A stretch of DNA of 5,629 nt from Phycisphaerae bacterium (GTDB lineage: Bacteria; Planctomycetota; Phycisphaerae; Tepidisphaerales; Tepidisphaeraceae): positions 1-5,629 of the forward strand of contig JACMJD010000390.1 of the NCBI GenBank assembly GCA_014380825.1, written 5' to 3'. Every line of letters begins with the position of its first letter. Position 1 is the stretch's first letter. The position numbers and the translations under genes were made by a program. The notes beneath the pieces were generated by a model. The model made no database searches. It saw nothing but the letters and a program-made list of their open reading frames with translations, and was not told the DNA's origin. Of the stretch, positions 3,366 through 5,190 are shown piece by piece.

Positions 3366-3411
3366 CCTTGCAGGACGTGTCAAATTTAGACATCGTGTGC
3401 GTAAGTTCGCG

Positions 3412-5190
3412 ATGTCCGACCTCACTTTTGCAAAACCATCTCGCTGGCGTGACCTGCTCACGCGCGTATGCCTGCTCGCGATCTCGTCGATTCTCCTGAC
3501 GTTCTCCTTCGCCCCCTACTCCCAGTTCTATCTCGCCTGGATCGGCATGGTGCCGTGGCTGTTGGCGCTGCGCGGGACGCGAAACATCTACGCCGCCATC
3601 GGGTGGGGATTCATCGGCGGTGTGATCTTCAACGCGATTTCGATGACCTGGCTCATCCACGCGACATTGCTCGGCACGGCGGCACTCGTCGGATACACGT
3701 CGCTCTTCTGGGCATTGGCCGGGGCGATCGTTCACGCGACGAAAGCGCTCGAGCCTCGGCGATGGCATCCAGCGGTCGCGGTCCTGCTGATCGCGACGGT
3801 CTGGGCCGGCTGCGAATGGTTCCGCGGCTGGCTGTTCAACGGATTCCAATGGATGTTCCTCGGCCAAACGCAATCGCCGATTCTGGCGATGTGCCAGGTC
3901 GCGGATATCGGCGGCGTGTTTGCGGTGACGTTTTGGGTGATGTGCATCAATGCGCTGATCGTGATCACAGTGATGCATCGTGCTCCCTCGCCCCGTACGC
4001 GGGGAGAGGGTTGGGGTGAGGGGCCTCCGGTTGCCAGCGAAACACGAATAAGCCCAGACCCCTCACCCAACCTCTCCCCGAGTACGGGGCGAGGAGTAGG
4101 ATTGGCATCCCTCTTCGCCGCGCTGATTGTTATCTTCACTCTGCTCTACGGCCTCTTCCGCATCTCCCAAACCCAAACCACACCCGGCCCGCGCGTGATG
4201 GTCGTGCAACCGGACTTCGCCCACGAGCGCGGCGGCGCGCGAACCGTGACTTGGGAACACCAAGCCGAATATCACCTGGCTGAAACCGCGAAGGCACTCG
4301 CGAACGAAAAAGGCGTCGACCTGGTCGTCTGGTCCGAAACTGTTCTTCCGCCGATGAACGCCGAAGCGCGCCGCCGCGCGAAAGATCCGCGCCTCTCGAC
4401 TGGAATCCACGACGATGTTCTCGCACTCGTTCGCAAACATGCCACCTCGCTGGTGTTCGGCGCGTACGCGCTGGTCACCTTCGACAAGTCCGAAGCCGAC
4501 GCCGACATTCGCAACGCGACTTATCTCTACTCCGCCTTCCGCGACGATCAGCTGCGATACGACAAGATTCACCTCGTCCCCTATGGCGAATCCGTGCCGT
4601 TCAAAAAGTCGATCCCCTGGCTGCACAAGCTGATGTTCCAGATGGCCGCGTACTCGGTGAATTATCTGATCACCGCCGGCGCGCTGGATGACTTGCGGAT
4701 TTTCGATCTGCCGACCGCGGACTCGAATGCGAAATGGCGATTCGTCACGCCGATCTGTTTCGAAGACATCGACGGCCGCCTGTGCTCGCGCATGTTTCGG
4801 CCAACTCCGGATGCGCCGGGCGTGAAGCGCGCTGAACTGATCATCAACATCTCCAACGACGGCTGGTTCAAAGGCAACATGCGGCGGCAGCATTTTCAGA
4901 ACGCGATCTTCCGCAGCATCGAAAACCGCGCCCCCACCGCCCGCGCCGACAACACCGGCATCAGCGGCTTCATCGATTCGGTTGGCCGGGTCGATCAAGC
5001 GACGCTGATGCCCGAAGACACCAGCGGTATTCGCGTCGCGACGCTGGCGATCGACCCGCGACTCACGTTTTACACCCGTTTTGGCGATGTGTTCGGCGCG
5101 GCGTGTTTTGTCATCTCCATCGCGGCCTGCATCGTGATGTTCGTTCGCGATCGACGCCGCGCCGCGTTATCATTGCAGACACATTTATGA
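3412..5190 (+). CDS. lnt: Apolipoprotein N-acyltransferase (Lnt)
   Basis: Lnt moves an acyl chain from a phospholipid to the N-terminal cysteine of diacylated lipoproteins, the last step of lipoprotein maturation in the inner membrane. With the ATG at 3412 the protein has 592 residues; an in-frame GTG at 3397 would add five, and neither has a clear Shine-Dalgarno. Seven probable membrane helices lie at about 15-36, 39-53, 59-83, 88-110, 119-140, 166-188 and 231-249, and an eighth at 560-579. Between helices 7 and 8 is the nitrilase-like domain, with the expected catalytic triad E309 (VVWSET), K385 (DKIHLVPYGES) and C449 (TPICFED), then ISNDGWF and a conserved ADNTGISGFID block. E. coli Lnt has E267, K335 and C387 in 512 residues. 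Residues 192-228 are encoded by a palindromic repeat between helices 6 and 7; without them the protein is about 555 residues. The stop overlaps the next start. Confidence 0.93.
   Translation: MSDLTFAKPSRWRDLLTRVCLLAISSILLTFSFAPYSQFYLAWIGMVPWLLALRGTRNIYAAIGWGFIGGVIFNAISMTWLIHATLLGTAALVGYTSLFWALAGAIVHATKALEPRRWHPAVAVLLIATVWAGCEWFRGWLFNGFQWMFLGQTQSPILAMCQVADIGGVFAVTFWVMCINALIVITVMHRAPSPRTRGEGWGEGPPVASETRISPDPSPNLSPSTGRGVGLASLFAALIVIFTLLYGLFRISQTQTTPGPRVMVVQPDFAHERGGARTVTWEHQAEYHLAETAKALANEKGVDLVVWSETVLPPMNAEARRRAKDPRLSTGIHDDVLALVRKHATSLVFGAYALVTFDKSEADADIRNATYLYSAFRDDQLRYDKIHLVPYGESVPFKKSIPWLHKLMFQMAAYSVNYLITAGALDDLRIFDLPTADSNAKWRFVTPICFEDIDGRLCSRMFRPTPDAPGVKRAELIINISNDGWFKGNMRRQHFQNAIFRSIENRAPTARADNTGISGFIDSVGRVDQATLMPEDTSGIRVATLAIDPRLTFYTRFGDVFGAACFVISIAACIVMFVRDRRRAALSLQTHL
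3984..4097 (+). repeat. Nested palindromic repeat element inserted in frame in lnt
   Basis: Left arm 3986-4023 (38 nt) and right arm 4059-4094 (36 nt) are inverted copies. They agree at 35 of 36 aligned positions, with one mismatch and two single-base gaps, around a 35-nt loop. A further few bases pair outside with one bulge. Each arm carries its own small palindrome (CCCCGTACGCGGGG on the left, CCCCGAGTACGGGG on the right), so the element is nested. It reads through lnt without a stop and encodes an Arg/Gly/Pro/Ser/Glu-rich peptide beginning PSPRTRGEGWGEG. The opposite strand is also open and gives PSPQPSPRVRGEGA. From memory, peptides of this kind recur as translations of dispersed G/C-rich repeats in many unrelated bacterial genomes. 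No clear target-site duplication is seen. It is probably a non-autonomous palindromic or MITE-like element. Confidence 0.85.
4001..4023 (+). other. Canonical G-quadruplex motif on the lnt coding strand
   Basis: Four guanine runs, GGGG (4001-4004), GGG (4008-4010), GGGG (4013-4016) and GGGG (4020-4023), are separated by loops of 3, 2 and 3 nt. This fits the G3+N1-7 rule for a three-tetrad quadruplex. It lies in the left arm of the palindromic repeat and would be present in the lnt mRNA. The inverted right arm gives a weaker version on the other strand, because one run is only GG. Folding would compete with the long hairpin; whether it forms is unknown. Confidence 0.6.

Follow-up and report, generated by a model that had tools for sequence, protein, structure and literature searches.

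The gene for apolipoprotein N-acyltransferase, lnt, in the 5629-base stretch of DNA analysed here (the window) carries within its coding sequence an inverted pair of BoxC/PIT (triplex-motif) units. Very probably, this pair was gained as a multiple of codons in the loop that joins transmembrane helices 6 and 7 (TM6 and TM7) of the enzyme and is translated as a flexible loop that the protein tolerates. It would be read as a charge-neutral, Pro/Gly/Ser/Arg-rich segment of ~38 residues, and Lnt would tolerate it because the helices that the loop connects are remote from the catalytic nitrilase domain.

The lnt repeat is an inverted pair of BoxC/PIT units

The plus strand of the window encodes an AraC-type regulator, a PhyH-like dioxygenase, a pseudopilin-like DUF1559 protein and lnt, which occupies the open reading frame (ORF) at 3397..5190 (plus strand) with a first ATG at 3412. 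Its 592-residue product matches the Pfam families LNT_N and CN_hydrolase and scores above the cut-off of TIGR00546. The lnt stop codon overlaps the ATG of the next gene as ATGA (5187-5190). That gene encodes a putative lipoprotein with a lipobox-like FGC.

The repeat consists of two 36-nt arms (3986-4021 and 4059-4094) that are 83% complementary and lie 37 nt apart. The RNA of 3970-4110 folds with an energy of -96.7 kcal/mol (z -9.48; equally stable shuffles, 0/200), and the ORF runs through it, in agreement with the initial annotation, which had placed an inverted repeat of about 110 bp wholly inside lnt with the frame kept. Each arm is itself a hairpin followed by a third, G-rich (purine-rich) strand. 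We scanned the window with a re-implementation of the class II intrastrand triplex rules as outlined in PMC4666352: a pyrimidine stem, a purine stem and a third purine-rich strand, with stems of 6-15, loops of 1-6 and at most one mismatch. The scan returned two units in the repeat, with stems of 10 and 9, loops of 6 and 3 and one mismatch in each. The first, at 3985..4023 on the plus strand, reads CCCTCGCCCC, GTACGC, GGGGAGAGGG, TTG and GGGTGAGGGG. The second, at 4059..4094, is inverted (minus strand), with stems of 9 and the same G mismatch, and a spacer at 4024..4058 lies between them. Across both strands of 60 first-order Markov surrogates (120 strands), no class II motif with stems of at least 8 occurred.

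Full-text searching with the string GGGGTGAGGGG pointed to Holder et al. 2015 (PMC4666352), which treats the BoxC repeat of Escherichia coli. With loop 1 set aside, the left unit of the window and MG1655 unit no. 7, as printed in Table 1 of that paper, agree at 32 of 33 bases, the G mismatch included. By BLASTN (E values up to 10) the unit matches 5357 of 5426 E. coli genomes, with a median of 15 places per genome; the best places align over the full 41 bases, with 87.8% identity and an E value of 3e-4. None of the 25 E. coli places among the matches listed lies under an annotated feature. The repeat in lnt is thus an inverted pair of units of a known family, which the initial annotation missed. 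An Rfam scan of the window gave no match at gathering scores.

According to the account in PMC4666352, MG1655 carries 23 BoxC/PIT units, always intergenic, including five inverted pairs; the BoxC repeat was later named PIT and TM (TM_ECO). The lnt pair resembles these elements, as they are described there, in unit sequence, class II plan and inverted pairing, and in a G mismatch like that of the commonest MG1655 type. It differs in lying inside a gene, in frame, although an intergenic position, as reported for E. coli, is a tendency and not a structural criterion. Among the open-access titles listed for intrastrand triplexes or PIT, PMC4666352 was the only one devoted to the subject, and neither these nor the titles listed for REP or Rickettsia palindromes brought up a report of BoxC/PIT units inside genes.

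Gain of the insert and its position in Lnt

The inserted codons comprise residues 191-228 (APSPRTRGEGWGEGPPVASETRISPDPSPNLSPSTGRG; 38 codons, 3982..4095, plus strand), close to the residues 192-228 proposed earlier. Their GC content at third codon positions (GC3) is 0.58, as against 0.81 upstream and 0.76 downstream. Among the relatives listed for the window Lnt, those with an organism name come from Fontivita, Tepidisphaeraceae and Phycisphaerales and are 38-45% identical to it, so that the host probably has its kin among these planctomycetes. The insert peptide is absent from all 16 relatives in our alignment A1, so that the orthologues do not all carry the loop, the point on which the initial annotation had wanted an alignment. 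Downstream of the insert, where the same annotation had located the catalytic residues, E309 and C449 are invariant and K385 is at least 90% conserved among 57 aligned Lnt proteins. When Lnt residues 188-232 of the window were used as a protein query, the only protein found among 4 candidates was the window Lnt itself. A genome scan with Lnt gave two loci, both from Akkermansiaceae, and neither of their genomes (0/2) matched the element.

It is unlikely that the repeat is kept for a function, its RNA hairpin slowing translation between helices 6 and 7 or tuning lnt together with the overlapping lipoprotein gene. The stability of the fold and the ATGA overlap would suit such a role, but the nearest orthologues lack the repeat and it bears no sign of conservation; moreover, work cited by PMC4666352 found PIT elements to have no promoter or terminator activity, and in vivo footprinting in E. 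coli, as reported in that paper, gave no support for a stable triplex. The insert would be translated and close to neutral in its effect.

The segment from QVAD to GPRV, which spans the insert, is present in 118 of 120 Lnt proteins (the window's own counted) and is 61-70 residues long in 115 of the 118 (median 64); the window has 97, P0002 has 81 and P0022 has 103. The segments of P0002 and P0003 exceed the median by 17 and 6 residues, and some of the extra length may therefore predate the repeat. Such variation within the clade (97, 81 and 70 residues) is what an ordinary variable loop, palindromic by chance, would offer, but we regard that origin as refuted and scarcely conceivable: the loop contains two copies of a defined unit, one of them matching an E. 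coli element at all but one of the compared bases, the triplex scan and the E. coli BLASTN matches agree with this, and its GC3 is unlike that of its flanks. Scored as translated BoxC sequence, the window insert was equalled by none of 60 shuffles; for the loops of P0002 and P0003, 13 and 51 of 60 shuffles did as well.

On the two sides of the insert, the window Lnt is 79% and 79% identical to P0003, and 78% and 74% identical to P0002. Both flanks are thus about equally close to both proteins, which speaks against a chimera, and we rejected that candidate. An assembly artefact, in which two pieces were fused across a repeated sequence, is highly improbable: the protein (P0001) is known from a single 5629-base contig and repeats like this one are dispersed, as such an error would require, but besides the even flanks, the frame is unbroken and the modelled fold is complete.

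In an AlphaFold2 model built with 57 sequences (mean pLDDT 91.2), the insert forms a low-confidence coil (block pLDDT 54-62) between confident helices at residues 169-190 and 225-252. Lnt structures take all of the 24 top places among the PDB matches of the model, with TM-scores of 0.74-0.80 by target length. The position between two membrane helices that had been proposed is supported. The basic character proposed with it is not: with 4 R, no K and 4 D/E, the insert is charge-neutral. By the Lnt topology, the loop would be the one between TM6 and TM7, which would place it on the cytoplasmic side, away from the nitrilase domain in the periplasm. Conservation is poor over the 30 residues that follow the insert (40% to both P0002 and P0003), which leaves its exact ends uncertain, and the insert may have taken the place of some native residues.

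Similar inserts occur in other Lnt proteins. P0022 has LPSGDAWGEGLGRGAPPAPSPQPSPAGGGRK in the same loop as the window insert; since 2 of 60 composition-matched shuffles score equally, a BoxC-type insert in this distant Lnt is probable but not proven. In an Lnt tree of 117 of the 120 proteins, made by a quick method with two sequences cut to 620 residues, P0022 stands on the opposite side from the clade of the window. Because insert-free Lnts lie between them, we infer two separate gains; the tree program's group table, which holds labelled rows only, is compatible with a single origin. In P0116, a similar insert (0/60 shuffles as good) lies in a different loop, in the catalytic half. P0005 and P0047 terminate in BoxC-like peptides (0/60 shuffles each), as does P0004 less surely (1/60), and BoxC-like peptides in P0094 (4/60) and P0036 (7/60) are doubtful. 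As a separate observation, P0022 and P0100, the two relatives that we read for this, continue beyond the enzyme into lipobox-like sequence and HEAT repeats, apparently an Lnt enzyme fused to a substrate-like lipoprotein.

BoxC-like units in other genes and genomes

The G001 record is from Akkermansiaceae, and we take its phylum to be Verrucomicrobiota. The element matches 12 of 194 genomes of this phylum. A unit pattern allowing up to 3 mismatches, scanned against 7 of the matching genomes, gave 16, 45, 7, 29, 6, 3 and 6 matches, compared with 0, 0, 1, 0, 0, 0 and 0 for the reversed control. Gene context was examined in the three richest of the 12 matching genomes (G126, G141 and G120), in 58 of 62 planned regions, the other 4 being omitted as overlapping others. 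These regions held 62 BoxC-like clusters, 9 of them with a spanning ORF that extends at least 60 residues beyond both ends. Since 53 of the 62 have no such ORF, units within genes are a minority; "in frame" is moreover true by construction for the 9, as stop-free spanning ORFs alone were retained and genes broken by an insert fall outside the count. Five of the 62 clusters are read in frame within a gene that has a recognised domain. The four genes concerned are priA (two clusters), PBP1C, an FtsX-like permease gene and a BamB-like gene (L113) whose Pfam match covers just one side of the insert. The spanning ORFs at L109 and L074 match no Pfam family. This domain tally leaves out the short ORFs at L082 and L116 and, at L109, L113 and L119, the second ORF on the opposite strand. 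At one locus of G141 (L092, contig 25), BoxC-like units stand in tandem at 45-base steps, unlike the inverted pairs.

The initial annotation had suggested that openness on both strands helps the element to sit in coding DNA. We rejected this idea: 3 of the 6 frames of the lnt element are open, where 114-nt stretches taken from the window have a mean of 3.06, so that the element is no more open than random DNA. The BoxC-like pairs of Verrucomicrobiota (n=17) have 1.88 open frames on average, and random stretches from their loci have 2.65. The values are 4.45 against 4.39 for single units (n=40) and 2.0 against 1.66 for larger clusters (n=4); the script counted 61 clusters, not the 62 of the spanning-ORF count, under a different duplicate rule.

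The two clusters in priA of G141 mark two sites. A PriA-type match was found in 19 of 20 relatives; many PriA alignments break at about residue 265 and restart at 321, or also skip about 132-170, and that of G199 runs from 14 to 835. Relative to priA of a close relative, G197, the G141 gene has 165 extra nt, a multiple of three, which contain the BoxC pair, and the two proteins are 94% identical from residue 321. G197 priA retains part of the first insert. A protein search with G141 PriA residues 266-312 found one protein among 11 candidates, another PriA. At the second site, G199 priA (L151) has a different palindrome, open in frame, whose longest exact inverted repeat is 15 (0/100 shuffles; 150 nt examined). 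As this palindrome differs from the G141 BoxC pair, one PriA site took two unrelated repeats. As regards the marks of a MITE, which are terminal inverted repeats with a target-site duplication, the lnt element has its 36-nt arms, and by eye no duplication is evident in the priA pair. Filled and near-empty sites such as those in priA make the mode of BoxC spread testable.

Units also meet gene ends. With the third strand GGGTGAGGGG, one frame of a BoxC unit reads TGA, and BoxC-like units supply the TGA stops of two genes, xdhC in Azospirillum lipoferum and one for a DMT transporter in Rhizobium phaseoli (L147 1501-1537; L149 1501-1542). Among 60 plasmid records listed of 248 that match the unit, 7 are unannotated; in 50 the match falls on no feature, and in 3 it overlaps a coding sequence, two at the 3' end and one (cobA) at the 5' end, the gene table of the last being incomplete. 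The whole element matches 30 plasmid records, all from Rhizobiaceae (2 unannotated, 28 without a feature under the match), and a search of 50,697 phage records gave a single match.

We suggest that BoxC units may arrive throughout the genome and that harmful hits in genes would be lost by selection, so that the survivors would be those in intergenic DNA, those across a stop codon and those that keep the frame within a loop. More broadly, we give an even chance to the proposition that, across Planctomycetota and Verrucomicrobiota, BoxC/PIT repeats keep supplying protein loops, survive when in frame at loops and revisit sites (the lnt loop 6-7 probably twice, and one priA site with two palindromes); a repeat family regarded as intergenic would in this way become coding material. 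The in-frame BoxC loops of lnt, priA and pbpC mark loops that tolerate ~40 extra residues.

Relation to other palindromic repeats

Palindromic repeats within ORFs are described for the GTAG and CGTC REPs, and the lnt element resembles them in this respect. In the account of Di Nocera et al. 2013 (PMC3733652), genes can carry GTAG REPs in frame, with the verrucomicrobium O. terrae having the most such cases, and recB of two Xanthomonas species was struck by a REP at about one site. Such precedents, and a GTAG at 4096-4099 that adjoins the right arm, would accord with the lnt repeat being a member of the GTAG REP superfamily mobilised by a RAYT transposase. We consider this very unlikely and rejected such membership for BoxC-like units, because only 1 of 117 units (84 clusters) has the tag at the tested place, within ~14 nt outside the hairpin base at one unit end (background 59/1740 20-mers), and the left end in the window is GCAC. 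From their description in that paper, GTAG and CGTC REPs bear a GTAG or CGTC tag and have other unit sequences, unlike the BoxC-like units, which we retain as the identity of the lnt pair.

The resemblance to Rickettsia palindromic elements that had been proposed in principle is upheld in that a palindrome was gained in frame in an otherwise conserved Lnt; the repeat family is probably a different one. Ogata et al. (2000, 2002) reportedly found these elements in frame in unrelated genes. As portrayed in PMC10969869, they share with the lnt element an in-frame palindrome in unrelated genes, and their length (~150 bp) and ten families set them apart from it. RPE-4 and RPE-6 are CGTC repeats according to PMC3733652, and by eye no CGTC was seen beside either arm of the lnt repeat. 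Coding palindromes in Nematomorpha mitochondria are likewise inverted repeats in working protein genes; both of their arms, as presented in PMC6649704, encode conserved protein, whereas the lnt repeat is an added loop. The lnt element thus behaves like an intragenic REP or Rickettsia element and belongs to BoxC/PIT, and it adds BoxC/PIT to the families of in-frame coding repeats, among which the Rickettsia elements and GTAG/CGTC REPs were already known.

Two further features of the window lie outside lnt. Positions 3-459 hold the end of a protein with the PEP-CTERM-like tail VPEPASLSVLALAAVGAMRRRRR, followed by a perfect 12-bp hairpin at 432-459. A second palindrome at 1490-1560 (arms 1490-1517 and 1533-1560, 93% complementary) spans the end of the AraC-type gene and provides its TAG stop; its 16-base core occurs exactly in 19 viral-contig stretches, some with two or three copies at 21-base steps.
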